A DNA stretch of 64,000 nucleotides from Allomuricauda sp. NBRC 101325. GTDB taxonomy: Bacteria > Bacteroidota > Bacteroidia > Flavobacteriales > Flavobacteriaceae. The stretch spans positions 230,649-294,648 of the forward strand of contig NZ_BSQF01000001.1 in assembly GCF_030268205.1 (NCBI RefSeq). The letters are read 5' to 3'. Shown here piece after piece: positions 964 to 22,940 of this stretch (position 1 is the first letter of the stretch; every line of letters begins with the position of its first letter). Position numbers and translations under genes: made by a program. A model generated the notes under the pieces. It was not told the origin of the DNA, did not search any database, and saw nothing but the letters and a program-made list of their open reading frames with translations.

Positions 964-988
964 GTGGCTTCGACTACGCTCAGTCACC
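964..988 (+). repeat. REP-like hairpin, copy 1 (forward)
   Basis: Stem GTGGCT (964-969), T, CG, loop ACTA, CG, bulge CTC, then AGTCAC (982-987) pairing with the first arm (one G.T pair). Same architecture as the other copies. Together with 1048-1075 it forms an inverted pair about 60 bp apart. Confidence 0.75.
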
Positions 989-1047: not shown

Positions 1048-1075
1048 GGGTAGTTGAGCGTAGTCGAAACTACCC
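1048..1075 (-). repeat. REP-like hairpin, copy 2 (reverse)
   Basis: Arms GGGTAGTT (1048-1055) and AACTACCC (1068-1075) pair perfectly around the invariant core GAG-CG-TAGT-CG-A. The stem differs from that of copy 1 but is still fully paired, which indicates selection on structure. Confidence 0.8.
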
Positions 1076-1103: not shown

Positions 1104-1128
1104 GTGTCATCGACTACGCTCAGCCACC
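1104..1128 (+). repeat. REP-like hairpin, copy 3 (forward, weakened stem)
   Basis: Core T-CG-ACTA-CG-CTC is intact (1110-1121). The arms GTGTCA and AGCCAC pair at only 4 of 6 positions, so this copy is partly decayed. It is paired with the reverse copy at 1149-1167, just 3' of the GIY-YIG gene. Confidence 0.7.
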
Positions 1129-1148
1129 TAAAACATACAGTTCTGGAA

Positions 1149-1167
1149 ACTTGAGCGGAGTCGAAAC
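1149..1167 (-). repeat. REP-like hairpin, copy 4 (reverse, degenerate)
   Basis: Core GAG-CG-GAGT-CG-A (1153-1164) with one loop change (TAGT to GAGT) and only two flanking base pairs left. It lies immediately downstream of the GIY-YIG stop codon. Confidence 0.6.
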
Positions 1168-1171
1168 AACT

Positions 1172-1486
1172 TTATATTACTTCTTTAAAATATTTAAAAT
1201 TCGTCTCGTTCTTGCATTCAGACAATTGAGGCAAAACCCCAAATTCTTCATTCATCAACGCCTCTTTCTTTGCTCTCGACCAACCTTGAATTTGTTTTTC
1301 TCGTTCAAATGCTGAAGTAATACTTAAGTATTCTTCAACATATAACAATTTAACTGGCAATCTTTTCTTTGTATGGTTTGCACCTCTACCATCTTGATGC
1401 TCGTTTATACGTTTGTCCAAATCGATGGTACTGCCTGTGTAATAGCTGTCATCTGAACAATGTAATATGTAAACGAAACCTTTCAC
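1172..1486 (-). CDS. Small GIY-YIG endonuclease-domain protein
   Basis: GIY-YIG fold nuclease of the short stand-alone (YhbQ/UPF0213-like) type, about 104 residues. Numbering from the GTG at 1486: VYI at 5-7, YYTGS at 15-19, arginine R26 and histidine H30 in the DLDKRINEH stretch, and the metal-binding glutamate E61 in AFEREK, followed by GWSRAKK. Catalytic positions appear intact. The frame can be extended to a TTG at 1525, but the extra 13 residues (VAERSRSH...) are a translation of the flanking hairpin, so I prefer the GTG, which starts at the conserved domain. No Shine-Dalgarno is visible. The gene is enclosed by hairpin pairs on both sides. A role in moving or processing those hairpins is inference; the cellular substrate is unknown. 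Confidence 0.8.
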   Translation of the reverse strand: MKGFVYILHCSDDSYYTGSTIDLDKRINEHQDGRGANHTKKRLPVKLLYVEEYLSITSAFEREKQIQGWSRAKKEALMNEEFGVLPQLSECKNETNFKYFKEVI

Positions 1487-1498
1487 GAACCAATTATT

Positions 1499-1523
1499 GT
1501 GGCTTCGACTACGCTCAGCCACC
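1499..1523 (+). repeat. REP-like hairpin, copy 5 (forward)
   Basis: Perfect arms GTGGCT (1499-1504) and AGCCAC (1517-1522) around T-CG-ACTA-CG-CTC. It covers the possible upstream TTG and GTG starts of the GIY-YIG gene. Inverted partner at 1541-1564, 17 bp away. Confidence 0.8.
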
Positions 1524-1540
1524 AAACTAATCTAGAATCG

Positions 1541-1564
1541 GTAGCTGAGCGTAGTCGAAGCTAT
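1541..1564 (-). repeat. REP-like hairpin, copy 6 (reverse) carrying the metX-thrA stop
   Basis: Arms TAGCT (1542-1546) and AGCTA (1559-1563) around GAG-CG-TAGT-CG-A. The TAG stop codon of metX-thrA (complement 1561-1563) is formed by the hairpin arm, so the repeat boundary lies exactly at the end of that gene. Confidence 0.8.
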
Positions 1565-4500
1565 ATCTTTTCTGCTATTCTTAATATATCACCAAAAACT
1601 CCTCTTGCGGTCACAGCAGCACCTGCCCCTGCACCTTGAATCACCAATGGATTTTCTCCATAGGATTCTGTATAAATTTCGATAATGGAATCGGAACCTT
1701 TGATCTGTCCCAAGGCACTTTCCTTTGGAACCGAAATCAATTTCACATCCAAAATCCCTTTATCCTGTTGAAGATCTCCATGTAAATCGCCCACATAGCG
1801 AAGCACATGGCCTACTTCTTGTTCACTCTTGATTTCGGAATACACCTCATCCATCTCACCAATGCGAGTCATAAAATCATCAAATTGGAGGGGTTGAAGT
1901 TGTTCAGGAATCAAATTCTGCACATTAATATCCGAAAATTCATTTTGAAGATCGAGCTCGCGGGCCAAAATCAACAATTTTCTACCCACATCATTTCCTG
2001 ACAAATCCTCTCTTGGATCTGGTTCGGTATAGCCATTTTCCATCGCTTCCTTAACAATGGTGGAAAAAGCTGTTTCTTTCTCCGAAAATGCATTGAAAAT
2101 ATAGCTCAACGAGCCTGAAAACACCCCTTTGATTCTTGTGATGTTTTCTCCAGACAGGTGTAATAATTTGATCGTATCGATCAATGGAAGCCCTGCCCCA
2201 ACATTAGTTTCATACAAGTATTGTTTTTGATTCGCATCCAAACATTTACGGAGGCTTTTATAGGTATCAAAACTCAATGTATTCGCAATTTTATTGGATG
2301 AAACCAAGTCAAAACCATGTTTTACCAAAGGCTCATAATTCTCTACAAAGGTGTTGCTAGCGGTGTTGTCCACAGCAATCAAGTTCTCCAAATGATTCCT
2401 TTTAGCAAAGGCAATGATGTCTAAAACTTCATAGGGAACTCCCTCCTTTTCCAATCTTTCTTTCCAATTGGAACCGATGCCTTTGGCATCCAACAAAACC
2501 TTTCTGGAGTTGGAAACCGAAAAAATGCGCAAGTCCAAACTTTTGCGTTCTTCAATGCTCTTTTCTGAATTCAGGATTTGGTCAATCAAAGTACCTCCAA
2601 CCGTTCCATGACCGAACAAGGCCAAATTGATTTTCTTCGCGATTCCGAAAATCTGTCCATGAATCACATTGATGGCTTTATGAAGATCGGATTTCTTCAC
2701 CACCATACTCACATTCTTCCCTGTCACCGTGTTATTGAACAACAACGGAATCACCTGGTTTTTCACCAAAGCGTTAAACGGCTTGTGAAAACTGCTCAAA
2801 TCCATTCCCACAATGGAAATCACCGAAACATCTTTTACCACTGTTATTTGGTTGATGTCTTGACTTGAATAATCCGTCTCAAATTCTTGATCGAGAACTT
2901 TTTTGGCTTTTTCGGCTTTGGACTCATCCACCACCAAACCAATACCTCGCTCGGAAGAACCCTGCGAAATAATTCCCACACTGATGCCATTCTGGCCCAA
3001 TGCACGGAAAATTCGCATGTCGACTCCAACTTTACCGAGCAATCCCCTACCTTCAAGATTAATTAGAGCCATATTGTCCAGCACCGAAAGTGATTTGATT
3101 CCTCCATTATCGGTTTTAGGGCCAATCAAAGTTCCCTCATTATCGTCGTTGAACGTATTGCAAATGCGCAGTGGAATGTTTTTCTCGATAAGCGGAATTA
3201 TGGTCTTAGCATGCAAAATATTGGCCCCAAAATTGGCCAGCTCATTGGCTTCGCTATAAGAAATCACATCAATCAACTTGGCATCGCTCACCAAATCGGG
3301 ATTAGCCGTAAAAATCCCATCTACGTGGGTGTAATTGATCAATTCGGAAGCATCCAAATAATTCGCCAACAAAGCAGCGGAGTAATTACTTCCGTTTCTT
3401 CCCAAAGTGGTGGTTGAACCATCTCGATTAGACCCGATAAATCCAGTTACGACAGGAATAGTATCTGCTTCCAATTCATGGAAATAACGAAGTACATTTT
3501 CTTTGGATGCACCTTGGTCTACCTCCGCATTGCTATAATTATCGTCCGTGGTAATCAACTTTCTGGAATCGAAAAGCTTTGCTTTTAACCCAGATGCTTT
3601 GAGTGCGGCAGTTACATATTTGGCGGACAACAACTCCCCAAAAGACAACATTTCGTCCTTGGTTTTGAGACTGTAATCCCCAGTCAAGGAAACCCCGTTC
3701 AATATTTTTTCAATGGCATTGAGCTCATCAGAAATATCAACATCAAAGTTGTTTTTTTGATAGGCTGCGAACTTCTTTAAATCTTCTTGGAAATCCTTGC
3801 CATCAGCAGCTTTGTCCAATAAATTTTCCAACTGATCTGTTGCTTTGCCCCTAGCGGAAACCACCACGGCAAAATGTTCATTGGCATCAGCTCTTTTAGA
3901 AATGATGTTGAGCACTCTTTCAATGCCCTCACCATTGGCCAAGGATTTACCACCAAACTTTAATATTTTGATGCGCTCCTTTTTTGCTTCAGGCTGAAAA
4001 ACGGGTTGCAACAATTTTTCCAACTGCTCAAATTCCATCAAAAAGGCATCGTGACCATGCAGCGATTGCACTTCTCCATAGGTAACATTGGCATTGGCTT
4101 GGGCCAATCGCTTAAAGGTTTCCTTGTTTTCCTCCGCGGTAAAGAACAAATCGGAATTCACTCCGATGATATGAATTTTCATTTCACTTTCTTGAAGTGC
4201 TTTGAAAGCTTCATCCCCATTTCGAGTAATGTCGATGGACTTCAATAATTGGTTCATCAACTTATAGGCGGATAGCTGAAAACGCTCCTGTAATTTTTTC
4301 CCGTGGTGCATCAACCAACTTTCCACATTGAACACTTTCAGCTCTTCATTGGTACTGCGTTTGAATCGTTCTTTGAAAGATTCTGGGGTACGATAACACA
4401 ACATGGCATGCATACGGGCATCGTGAACTGGCTGTTTGGAATTCACCAAAAACTGCTCCTGAATCTGACAGTTGGCAATCAACCAATCCGTAGATTTCCA

Positions 4501-4947
4501 ATCGGATGCCACTGGAATCAAATGTTCTGTGATATTCGGATCAAAAGCGGTCATTTCCCAAGCGATTCCACCACCCAATGAACCTCCGATAATAGCAAAC
4601 AGCTTTTCAATTTCAAGTTGCTTTAACCCCAACAAAAAGATTTTGGCTATGTCTCCAGCCACAAAATCCTTATAATTTTCTATGACAAAACCATCGTATC
4701 CATTTCCAGGGATATTAAAGGAAAGAACTGTATAAATATTGGTGTCGATGCATTTTCCTTCACCTATCAAATCGGTCCACCAACCACCTTCGCCTGCCAC
4801 ATTGGAGTTCCCCGTAAGTGCATGGTTCACCAACACAATGGGTGCCGAATGCAAGGGCTGTCCAAAAATTTCATAGGAAAGTTTCAGGTCTTGAACGGAC
4901 CCGCTTATCGTTTCAAATTGTTCTATGGCCAAATGCCTTAATTCCAT
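1561..4947 (-). CDS. MetX-ThrA triple fusion: homoserine acetyltransferase, aspartokinase, homoserine dehydrogenase
   Basis: One 1128-residue protein holding three steps of the aspartate pathway. Residues 1-320 are a MetX-type alpha/beta hydrolase: ALTGNSN near 43, nucleophile S123 in GGSLGGG, acid D266 and H299 in GHDAFL; it acetylates homoserine for methionine synthesis. From residue 328 comes an aspartokinase (KFGGKSLA 330-337), then tandem ACT-type regulatory segments, and from about 790 an NAD(P)-binding homoserine dehydrogenase (ALFGHGTVGG). The AK-HSD part of about 800 residues matches ThrA of enterobacteria (about 820). ATG start at 4947, 82 nt after a SAM-I aptamer, so expression should fall when SAM is high. 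The last codons run into a REP-like hairpin. Fusion order is read directly; feedback effectors are not visible. Confidence 0.92.
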   Translation of the reverse strand: MELRHLAIEQFETISGSVQDLKLSYEIFGQPLHSAPIVLVNHALTGNSNVAGEGGWWTDLIGEGKCIDTNIYTVLSFNIPGNGYDGFVIENYKDFVAGDIAKIFLLGLKQLEIEKLFAIIGGSLGGGIAWEMTAFDPNITEHLIPVASDWKSTDWLIANCQIQEQFLVNSKQPVHDARMHAMLCYRTPESFKERFKRSTNEELKVFNVESWLMHHGKKLQERFQLSAYKLMNQLLKSIDITRNGDEAFKALQESEMKIHIIGVNSDLFFTAEENKETFKRLAQANANVTYGEVQSLHGHDAFLMEFEQLEKLLQPVFQPEAKKERIKILKFGGKSLANGEGIERVLNIISKRADANEHFAVVVSARGKATDQLENLLDKAADGKDFQEDLKKFAAYQKNNFDVDISDELNAIEKILNGVSLTGDYSLKTKDEMLSFGELLSAKYVTAALKASGLKAKLFDSRKLITTDDNYSNAEVDQGASKENVLRYFHELEADTIPVVTGFIGSNRDGSTTTLGRNGSNYSAALLANYLDASELINYTHVDGIFTANPDLVSDAKLIDVISYSEANELANFGANILHAKTIIPLIEKNIPLRICNTFNDDNEGTLIGPKTDNGGIKSLSVLDNMALINLEGRGLLGKVGVDMRIFRALGQNGISVGIISQGSSERGIGLVVDESKAEKAKKVLDQEFETDYSSQDINQITVVKDVSVISIVGMDLSSFHKPFNALVKNQVIPLLFNNTVTGKNVSMVVKKSDLHKAINVIHGQIFGIAKKINLALFGHGTVGGTLIDQILNSEKSIEERKSLDLRIFSVSNSRKVLLDAKGIGSNWKERLEKEGVPYEVLDIIAFAKRNHLENLIAVDNTASNTFVENYEPLVKHGFDLVSSNKIANTLSFDTYKSLRKCLDANQKQYLYETNVGAGLPLIDTIKLLHLSGENITRIKGVFSGSLSYIFNAFSEKETAFSTIVKEAMENGYTEPDPREDLSGNDVGRKLLILARELDLQNEFSDINVQNLIPEQLQPLQFDDFMTRIGEMDEVYSEIKSEQEVGHVLRYVGDLHGDLQQDKGILDVKLISVPKESALGQIKGSDSIIEIYTESYGENPLVIQGAGAGAAVTARGVFGDILRIAEKI

Positions 4948-5028
4948 AATAGCAAAATAAACCCAAAAGGGTCAATTAGTAATAAATAGTATGGTTATAA
5001 GAAAGTGGGGCAGAGACTACCTGTTTTC

Positions 5029-5131
5029 GTTATCTATTCCCGTTGGGATAGAATGTAGCACCTTCTTGGTCATGGACACCAAGGGTTGCTAAGGCTTCAA
5101 CGGGTCTATTCCCTCCGCCTTTCTTGATAAC
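5029..5131 (-). ncRNA. SAM-I (S-box) riboswitch
   Basis: Read on the minus strand. P1 arms GTTATC and GATAAC pair perfectly at the two ends. Between them: AAGAAAGGCGGAGGGA, then GACCCGTTGAAGCC, TTAGCAACC, a CTTGGT/ACCAAG P3 hairpin, GGTGCTA, and a P4 hairpin ATTC...GAAT. This order and wording match the S-box consensus. It lies 82 nt upstream of metX-thrA. The expression platform is not obvious: a short GACCC-TTTT-GGGTT hairpin near 4963-4976, followed by a T-rich stretch, could act as a weak terminator or mask initiation. Confidence 0.93.
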
Positions 5132-5160
5132 TTACAATACGTGTTTGAACTTCGTTGGGA

Positions 5161-7291: not shown

Positions 7292-8545
7292 TTATAGACC
7301 AAAGGCTTCTTTCACATGATCTACCATATCCAATTTTTCCCAAGTGAAAAGTTCCACTTCTTTTTCGATTCTACCATTATATGGAGATTCAAAAATCTTG
7401 GTCAAGGTTTGTGGTTGCTTGCCCATGTGCCCGTATGCTGCAGTTTCCAAATAAATGGGATTGCGCAATTTTAAGCGTTCTTCAATCGCAAAAGGTCGCA
7501 TATCGAACAATTCCGATGCCTTTTTGGCGATTTCGCCATCACTCAATCCAAGCTTGGAAGTTCCATAGGTTTCCACAAAAATAGATGTAGGTTCCACTAC
7601 TCCAATGGCATAACTTACTTGCACCAAAATTTCGTCTGCCACTCCTGCTGCCACCAAGTTTTTGGCTACGTGACGTGCTGCATAAGCGGCACTTCTATCC
7701 ACTTTACTCGGATCCTTCCCGCTAAAGGCACCGCCACCATGAGCTCCTTTGCCCCCGTATGTGTCCACAATAATTTTTCTACCCGTAAGTCCTGTATCTC
7801 CGTGAGGTCCACCGATTACAAACTTGCCTGTAGGGTTGATGTGGTATTTAATTTGATCATTGAAAAGTTTCTGAATTCCTTCCGGCAACAATTTGATGAC
7901 TTCCGGGATCAAAATCTTGATGATATCTTCTTTGATCTTGGCCAACATCACCTCATCAGCATCAAACTCATCATGTTGGGTTGAAACTACGATGGTATCA
8001 ATACGCTGTGGCACATTATCATCGGAATATTCAATGGTCACCTGAGCTTTTGCATCGGGTCTTAAATAGGGAATACGGGTTCCCTCCCTTCTCAATTCGG
8101 CCAACACCTGAAGTATTTTATGGGAAATATCCAATGCCAAAGGCATATAGTTTTCGGTTTCCTTGGTGGCATAACCGAACATCATTCCTTGATCACCTGC
8201 ACCCTGCTCCTCTTTGCTTCCTCGGTCTACCCCTTGGTTAATATCTTGGGATTGCTCATGAATCAAAGAAATCACACCACATGAATCACCACTGAACTGA
8301 TATTCACCCTTGGTGTATCCTATTTTATTGATCACCTCACGGGCTATGCTCTGCAAATCCACATAGGTATGACTTTTTACCTCCCCAGCAAGCACTACCT
8401 GTCCTGTGGTCACCAACGTTTCACAGGCTACCTTACTTTCTGGGTCAAAGGCCAAAAAATTATCCAACAATGCATCACTTATCTGATCCGCAATCTTATC
8501 TGGATGTCCTTCGCTAACGGATTCTGATGTAAATAAATATGACAT
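7292..8545 (-). CDS. metK: S-adenosylmethionine synthetase
   Basis: Makes SAM from ATP and methionine in the cytoplasm. 417 residues, starting [16 protein letters not shown] (GHPDK binds ATP/methionine); later [19 protein letters not shown] with the glycine-rich loop, and [16 protein letters not shown] are all present. An upstream TTG at 8554 would add three residues, but the ATG at 8545 gives the normal family N-terminus. The 5' leader carries a SAM-II-type aptamer, so the gene is probably shut off by its own product. A strong terminator follows. Its neighbour beyond the S15 hydrolase is metX-thrA with a SAM-I switch, so both arms of the pathway sense SAM through different RNA folds. Confidence 0.96.
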
Positions 8546-8614
8546 TACGTTCAATTAATGGGAAATCTTGACTTAGACGTGCAACCGAAGCTCTCAATCA
8601 TCGATGAAGAGGAG

Positions 8615-8634
8615 TCAAACCACCATGGGTTTGA
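8615..8634 (-). promoter_or_regulatory. Hairpin next to the metK aptamer (possible expression platform)
   Basis: On the minus strand, TCAAACC and GGTTTGA pair around CATGGT. The 5' arm starts inside the last bases of the aptamer, so it could compete with the pseudoknot stem. There is no T run after it, so translational or structural coupling is more likely than termination. This is inference. Confidence 0.5.
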
Positions 8635-8704
8635 ACTGCTTTAGCATTTTTCTTGTGCCCTCTTTACTGGCATCTGAGGTTGCAATCAGTCAAATCTTTC
8701 CTCG
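8633..8704 (-). ncRNA. SAM-II-type riboswitch upstream of metK
   Basis: Minus strand: P1 arms GAGG (5') and CCTC enclose loop AAAGATTTGACTGATTGCAA, which lines up with the SAM-II loop wording (GAUUU...AUUGCAA). After P1 comes an inserted TGCC/GGCA hairpin (8656-8672), an A-rich linker, the conserved GCTAAAG (8639-8645) and CAGT, which can pair with ACTG in the first loop to make the H-type pseudoknot. The position directly before metK supports the call. The inserted hairpin makes it longer than the compact forms I know. A covariance search is needed for certainty. Confidence 0.7.
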
Positions 8705-8714
8705 TTTTGTGAGG

Positions 8715-11737: not shown

Positions 11738-11759
11738 ATATCTCGACTGCGCTCGATAT
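11738..11759 (+). repeat. REP-like hairpin, solitary copy 7
   Basis: Arms ATATC (11738-11742) and GATAT (11755-11759) around T-CG-ACTG-CG-CTC. The stem is different and the loop has one change, but the bulge and CG pairs are the same as near 1 kb. Confidence 0.75.
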
Positions 11760-11781
11760 GACATTCAAATCAATAAAATAA

Positions 11782-22920: not shown

Positions 22921-22940
22921 CCCTGAGCGTAGTCGAAGGG
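22921..22940 (-). repeat. REP-like hairpin, solitary copy 8
   Basis: Arms CCCT and AGGG around GAG-CG-TAGT-CG-A. The core is identical to the copies near 1 kb and the stem is different but paired. It lies about 70 bp upstream of thyA. Confidence 0.75.

Follow-up and report, generated by a model that had tools for sequence, protein, structure and literature searches.

The short hairpins dispersed through the window (the whole 64,000-nucleotide stretch analyzed here) and the rest of its genome probably belong to a small mobile element, either as its ends or as dispersed copies lacking its gene, and a GIY-YIG nuclease that reads hairpin structure probably mobilizes them. The hairpins are REPs in the broad sense: short, dispersed palindromes that are mainly intergenic and often occur as dimers. 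Two of them bracket a GIY-YIG nuclease gene, a point that goes beyond the sequence-only reading of this DNA, which had claimed that compensatory changes in the hairpin arms reveal selection on the folded form.

Hairpin copies and covariation of their arms

The hairpin at positions 1048 to 1075 (minus strand) reads GGGTAGTT-GAGCGTAGTCGA-AACTACCC and has 8-bp arms, two CG pairs, a 4-nt loop, and a GAG/A bulge (T/CTC on the reverse strand). Around it are an A-class copy at 964 to 988 (plus strand; GTGGCT, core, AGTCAC, and a C tail, with one mismatched pair), a copy with a decayed stem at 1104 to 1128 (plus strand; GTGTCA/AGCCAC), a second decayed stem with the loop variant ACTC at 1147 to 1170 (minus strand), a canonical GTGGCT/AGCCAC copy with a C tail at 1499 to 1523 (plus strand; arms at 1499 to 1522), and a TAGCT/AGCTA copy at 1540 to 1563 (minus strand; arms at 1542 to 1563). 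Farther along the window are a G-class copy at 11738 to 11763 (plus strand; ATATC/GATAT, arms at 11738 to 11759), whose TGACA tail is a TGTCA tag read on the other strand, and an A-class copy at 22921 to 22940 (minus strand; CCCT/AGGG). The arm pairs that had been quoted are thus all present, as is the bulged hairpin at 1048 to 1075. The window contains eight matches to the core with two or fewer mismatches, compared with a mean of 0.82 and a maximum of 4 in 100 shuffled sequences, and the genome contains 117 matches with at most one mismatch, compared with 6 for a reversed control. Opposite-orientation doublets are present among the genomic copies. Elsewhere in the window, two riboswitches lie within 3.7 kb of each other on the minus strand: a SAM (S-box) riboswitch at 5027 to 5133, just upstream of the minus-strand open reading frame (ORF) at 1561 to 4947, and a SAM-II riboswitch at 8631 to 8709, just upstream of the minus-strand ORF at 7292 to 8554.

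For the analysis of covariation, 107 distinct copies were recovered of the 117 counted, and 103 remained after four with outer flanks at least 60% alike were dropped. The arms were read in a fixed register to the core, and the controls were shuffled 3' letters and a partner slid by 1 or 2 positions. Watson-Crick pairs were present at arm positions 1 to 6 in 98, 99, 93, 86, 68, and 43 of the 103 copies, compared with shuffle expectations, which ignore the kinship of the copies, of 57, 51, 31, 31, 32, and 28; position 1 is partly set by the search pattern, and past position 6 there was no clear excess of pairing. At positions 2 to 5, pairing in register accounted for 346 of 412 cells and pairing with the slid partner for 67 to 121. 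At positions 3 and 4, each of the four Watson-Crick types is represented. The signal is retained within the A-class (loop ACTA, ACTC, or ACTT), in which position 3 is paired in 54 of 63 copies (22 expected), and within the G-class (loop ACTG), in which it is paired in 24 of 25 (6.5 expected), and therefore is not due to subclass structure alone. Nor are the arm pairs shared only by descent, because the 36 fully paired A-class copies (of 63) have 21 distinct 5-bp arms and the 21 fully paired G-class copies (of 25) have 9 distinct 4-bp arms.

These results support selection on the folded form, with strong covariation in both subclasses that is significant in a shuffle test ignoring kinship and is plainest at positions 2 to 4. 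Two parts of the earlier claim need to be qualified. The arms do vary while most cells remain paired, but three of the six copies between 964 and 1563 (cores at 970, 1110, and 1153) are mismatched somewhere in the innermost 5 bp. The bulge and the two CG pairs are as described, but their fixity is partly a product of searching by core.

It is probably as DNA that the fold matters. G-T pairs at positions 2 to 4 numbered 0, 2, and 3, compared with 23, 10, and 15 expected, and, over the stem positions of both classes, G-T mismatches (7 cells) and A-C mismatches (12 cells) were about equally rare. T-runs, a feature of intrinsic terminators, stood beside only 1 and 4 of the 103 stems on the two sides. 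The depletion of G-T pairs and the scarcity of T-runs make the constraint look like one on DNA and not on RNA. An explanation in which the hairpins are terminators or mRNA stabilizers, with arms that covary to conserve an RNA fold, is consistent with the location of most copies outside long ORFs (85 of 103 outside and 18 inside ORFs of at least 150 amino acids), and such roles are among those hypothesized for REPs in the available text of Di Nocera 2013 (PMC3733652). It is nevertheless unlikely because it conflicts with the wobble and T-run counts, no hairpin site had a gathering-score match in Rfam, and it leaves class-specific nuclease genes between the repeats unexplained.

Arm states can also be compared across species at single sites. 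The hairpin at the right junction of the window site has the arms TAGCT/AGCTA in four genus loci (L172, L174, L178, and L180) and TAACT/AGTTA in another (L185), and it is one-sided or broken in two more (L177 and L187). The second hairpin of a different doublet (L050) could be read as changing stepwise by species (CCTC/GAGG, CCTC/GAGA, TTTC/GAGA, and TCTC/GAGA), a reading that is weakened because the two hairpins of this doublet overlap in genomes G000 and G067.

Complementary arms might arise with no functional selection at all if template-switch (quasi-palindrome) repair copied one arm onto the other. Pairing that is almost entirely Watson-Crick, with wobble states scarce, fits such repair, and the overlapping hairpins at the L050 doublet indicate that arm rearrangement occurs. 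Template-switch repair may contribute to arm turnover. As the main explanation it has a small chance of being correct, because other species have one-sided and mismatched states at these sites, the asymmetric T/CTC bulge persists although template switching should tend to erase it, and the pairing of the hairpins with nuclease genes would be left unexplained.

The GIY-YIG gene and its bracketing hairpins

The GIY-YIG endonuclease gene (PF01541) is located at 1172 to 1486 on the minus strand and encodes about 104 amino acids if the putative start is the GTG at 1486. The mechanically called ORF (1172 to 1525, minus strand, 117 amino acids) extends to 1525 and reads through the hairpin, and the 117-amino-acid query in the searches for relatives therefore includes 13 N-terminal residues read from it. 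The ORF matched PF01541 with an E value of 2.5e-18 as a stand-alone GIY-YIG domain. In 117-residue numbering, Y19, Y29, H43, and E76 are invariant over the 22 rows of the alignment, and R39 is present in at least 90% of them. The predicted fold (mean pLDDT of 74, with the last 22 residues below 50) is nearest to UPF0213 and then to the branched-DNA nuclease Slx1. Padloc gave no match for the protein, and the sole NCBIfam match was a sub-threshold one to a group I intron endonuclease.

The gene sits between a minus-strand REP copy at its left (1147 to 1170) and a plus-strand copy at its right (1499 to 1523), with the tags pointing outward. The common form of this element in the genus is GGTGGCTGAGCGTAGTCGAAGCCAC, the gene, and GTGGCTTCGACTACGCTCAGCCACC. 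At the place equivalent to the left-end copy, the loci L174 to L179 and L191 have GTGGCT/AGCCAC, and the left stem is decayed in two of the 10 occupied loci (L172 and L180). In three occupied genus genomes the match contains a stop, located either in the gene itself or in the leader derived from the hairpin.

Presence of the element at this site is polymorphic. The region was matched in all 40 genus genomes, and among the 30 loci examined, the window's own included, 10 had the element, 1 had only a doublet, 16 were empty, and 3 had another short sequence. At empty sites 8 bases separate the two flanking alignments, and the TAGCT/AGCTA copy at 1540 to 1563 is at the junction with sequence that occupied and empty sites have in common. 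The most similar of the relatives examined (92% identical) has an empty site. Two gene-less doublets are also polymorphic, with empty sites in 12 of 30 loci (8 without one flank) and 14 of 30 loci (5 without one flank). Such occupied and empty versions of orthologous sites are a feature of mobile elements. When a target-site duplication was looked for, one doublet had a 5-base overlap, within a T-rich stretch.

In 8 of 30 genus loci (L348, L349, L351, L357 to L360, and L363), the intergenic site that a doublet occupies in the window's own genome is taken by other inserts, which frequently belong to other palindrome classes; this suggests that it is a reused landing site.

REP subclasses and nuclease lineages

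The subclasses differ in their tags. Of the 63 A-class copies, 38 have a C at tail position +6 and 54 have one at +7 (GG when the tag strand is read), and farther out there is no consensus. The G-class consensus is TGTCA, two free bases, TC, GAG CG CAGT CG A, GA, and two free bases; position 2 is T-A in 22 of 25 copies, and each of the five positions of the TGACA tail is kept in 23 to 24 of 25. Different GIY-YIG lineages accompany these classes within the genus. The lineage of the window gene pairs with the GG-tagged class, a lineage 41 to 42% identical to it pairs with the TGTCA class (L337, L338, and L340), and a third pairs with another ACTG class (L335). Counting against the nuclease-REP reading, 14 of 29 further genus GIY-YIG loci had no window-type core nearby. 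Among the other small GIY-YIG genes of the window's own genome, only one (L034) passed the flanking-palindrome score described below, with 21.5; two others (L033 and L035) lie, by eye, among TGACA/GTCATT-type palindromes, yet scored 12 and 13, and a further one (L036) had no paired palindromes. The L035 gene (G000:C1:1574125-1574352), situated among many palindromes, has an in-frame stop and looks decayed. A genus relative has three small GIY-YIG matches in tandem (G077:C1:510133-511117).

Across the family, five or more hairpin copies were present in 18 of 23 genomes with a window-like GIY-YIG gene, compared with 4 of 36 without one (p = 3e-6, with window-like defined by E ≤ 1e-15, a cut-off picked after the data were seen). 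Two copy-rich genomes, G081 (60 copies) and G069 (26 copies), had no GIY-YIG match at E ≤ 1e-3; such genomes require either loss of the nuclease after the copies had spread or the action of another nuclease. An alternative to the nuclease-REP reading is that a RAYT or IS200-type Y1 transposase mobilizes the REPs in trans, the GIY-YIG gene being incidental. Y1_Tnp matches were found in 9 of 20 genomes examined, and GTAG REPs are hypothesized to be RAYT-mobilized (Di Nocera 2013, PMC3733652). This explanation is very improbable, because PF01797 (Y1_Tnp), the HuH domain of RAYT-type genes that the REP/RAYT system calls for, had no match in the window's own genome, which is 99.6% complete and has more than 100 copies, and because no RAYT with flanking CGTC REPs was found by Di Nocera et al. 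(PMC3733652).

The association of GIY-YIG genes with palindromes extends beyond the genus. We scored flanking inverted palindromes (score of at least 16) and used shifted positions or the flanks of neighboring ORFs as controls. A GIY-YIG relative is carried by 39 of 60 family genomes, the window's own included. After ten matches that were the weakest or lay at contig edges were left out, 40 of 102 family matches (two of them long ORFs, and a few being split or repeated ORFs from a single locus) reached the score, compared with 6 of 416 shifted controls; against neighboring ORFs, the figures were 25 of 94 and 3 of 299. A scan of the collection with an 8-row CGTC-type alignment yielded at least 585 confirmed candidate relatives, the best 80 of which are the named loci; because of the alignment used, these sample the CGTC-type lineage and not the window lineage. 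Seven were too near contig ends to score. Among the remaining 73 of these best 80 loci, 45 reached a score of 16 (3 of 528 shifted controls), 44 did so in the comparison with neighboring ORFs (3 of 279), and 40 reached 18 (0 of 528). Hairpins with stems of at least 8 occurred at 6.2 per kb near the genes of these best 80 loci, compared with 0.76 per kb, both strands counted, and GTC at the 5' foot was in modest excess (102 of 296 near and 51 of 250 far strand-hairpins). Scores below 16 in 28 of the 73 loci scored among the best 80 and in 62 of the 102 family matches count against the reading.

The same arrangement, with other palindrome classes that include CGTC-tagged REPs, is present in several phyla. 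Record titles with scores of at least 18 among the best 80 of at least 585 relatives include Bradyrhizobium, Caulobacter, Hoeflea, Niveispirillum, Desulfosarcina, Scalindua, Chloroflexota, Armatimonadota, Cloacimonadota, Moraniibacteriota, and Gastranaerophilales; many of these records are metagenome bins, and single taxon assignments are therefore uncertain. Fifteen named plasmid stretches were examined. CGTC repeats flank GIY-YIG genes on plasmids of Azospirillum lipoferum 4B, Rhizobium CIAT894, Shinella, Novosphingobium aromaticivorans, and Sphingobium, and other palindromes do so in S. meliloti and two Methylobacterium stretches. Planktothrix and Spirosoma stretches scored 17 to 17.5, and R. 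rhododendri, Photobacterium, Cupriavidus, and the B. subtilis yazA control scored at control level. On the A. lipoferum 4B plasmid AZO_p3 (L203), the REP/GIY-YIG/REP unit lies between sufB and sufC. On a Sphingomonas parapaucimobilis plasmid (L207), window-type core hairpins (TCGACTTCGCTC) are found on one side only, upstream of a GIY-YIG gene (the flank upstream of 2007) whose product is 37% identical to that of the window, in a different phylum.

Nuclease and palindrome co-diverge. Protein identity correlated with the similarity of near-flank palindromes (Mantel r of 0.53, 0 of 999 permutations, 167 of 187 loci), also below 70% protein identity (r of 0.45). The correlation with far flanks was 0.10 (0 of 999), falling to 0.03 below 70% identity, so that part of the co-divergence signal is shared locus history. 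Among 1056 pairs with 60 to 70% protein identity, the near-flank palindrome was common to 36.8% and the far-flank palindrome to 0.4%.

One possibility is that the GIY-YIG genes are passengers in REP-rich intergenic landing zones, as the site with inserts that differ by species might indicate. Neighboring ORFs in these loci, however, seldom have paired palindromes in either the family or the best 80 loci. This low frequency, the co-divergence of nuclease and palindrome, and the occurrence of different nuclease lineages with different subclasses inside one genus make it distinctly unlikely that the genes are passengers.

Proposed mechanism and comparison with known systems

If the GIY-YIG nuclease mobilizes the REPs, it would act on a REP folded as a DNA hairpin, whether as a cruciform or in single-stranded DNA. 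Recognition would rest on the CG-loop-CG and bulge core, the fixed stem length, and the foot tag (GG for the window class and TGTCA for the sister class), and not on the letters of the middle stem pairs. These letters would then be free to drift, with the two arms forced to change together. Once the REP had been cut near its foot, new REPs, doublets, or REP-gene-REP units would arise elsewhere through copying or repair. We know of no strand joining by GIY-YIG nucleases, and integration would therefore have to rely on host repair.

The evidence leans slightly toward a broader proposal, that GIY-YIG proteins supply, across bacteria, the dedicated enzyme that CGTC-type and related REPs have seemed to lack. 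REP/GIY-YIG/REP units would then be minimal transposable elements that employ hairpin cutting and host repair with neither a transposase nor a reverse transcriptase, and arm covariation would be the footprint of an enzyme that reads shape and not letters. How CGTC REPs spread was left open in 2013, and what is proposed here is a small, testable enzyme family paired with them class by class. If correct, the proposal would explain why stem letters vary while pairing is constant, and it would suggest a function for many genes annotated "GIY-YIG nuclease family protein" (at least 585 candidate relatives in one scan). A literature search over titles and the starts of abstracts, with most subscription papers and all bioRxiv preprints outside its scope, found no link between GIY-YIG proteins and REPs; in the available text of one study, a RAYT and a GIY-YIG gene appear in one list of clade-specific genes with no link drawn (PMC9465073).

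CGTC REPs are found in five phyla, Bacteroidetes included, predominantly as HH dimers, and, in the available text of Di Nocera et al. 2013 (PMC3733652), seem to have no dedicated transposase. A. lipoferum, S. meliloti, and N. aromaticivorans are among the species named there, and in all three we found GIY-YIG genes between palindromes. Like CGTC REPs, the window hairpins are short and palindromic, bear a tag at one foot of the stem (TGTCA for the sister G-class), and form opposite-orientation dimers. In Azospirillum, Rhizobium, and Shinella, the repeats that adjoin GIY-YIG genes combine CGTC with an AT-opening stem and a CCA tail; the A. lipoferum repeat, which consists of CGTC, ATCCCCGC, GAAG, GCGGGGAT, and CCA, has the stem expected of a CGTC REP. 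The window class, in contrast, has arms that vary greatly, a GG tag, and a bulged stem of 5 to 6 bp. An unpaired terminal tag of the CGTC or TGTC/CCTC type is present in the G-class but not in the A-class, and neither class has the 8- to 9-bp stem with an AT opening, a loop of 4 to 5, and a mostly CCA tail. Thus, the window class is best placed as a sibling that would work in a similar way and not as a member.

The predicted nuclease has the fold and size of UPF0213 (YazA type) proteins, the nearest solved structures being 1zg2 and 1ywl. However, the one yazA tested, from a B. subtilis plasmid record, lies among housekeeping genes and has no paired palindromes. Slx1 is the next nearest match by profile and fold, and PDB titles describe its substrate as branched DNA; it differs in having longer chains and the partner Slx4, and its identity in fold alignments is 18 to 23%. 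The closest parallel in organization is REP/RAYT (TnpA-REP), which likewise combines a REP-flanked nuclease gene, few such genes with many gene-less copies, and co-divergence of nuclease and repeat. The enzyme and tag are different, a HuH single-tyrosine nuclease with GTAG there and a GIY-YIG nuclease here. If mobilization by the GIY-YIG nuclease is correct, REP propagation would have a second, unrelated nuclease solution beside the RAYTs.
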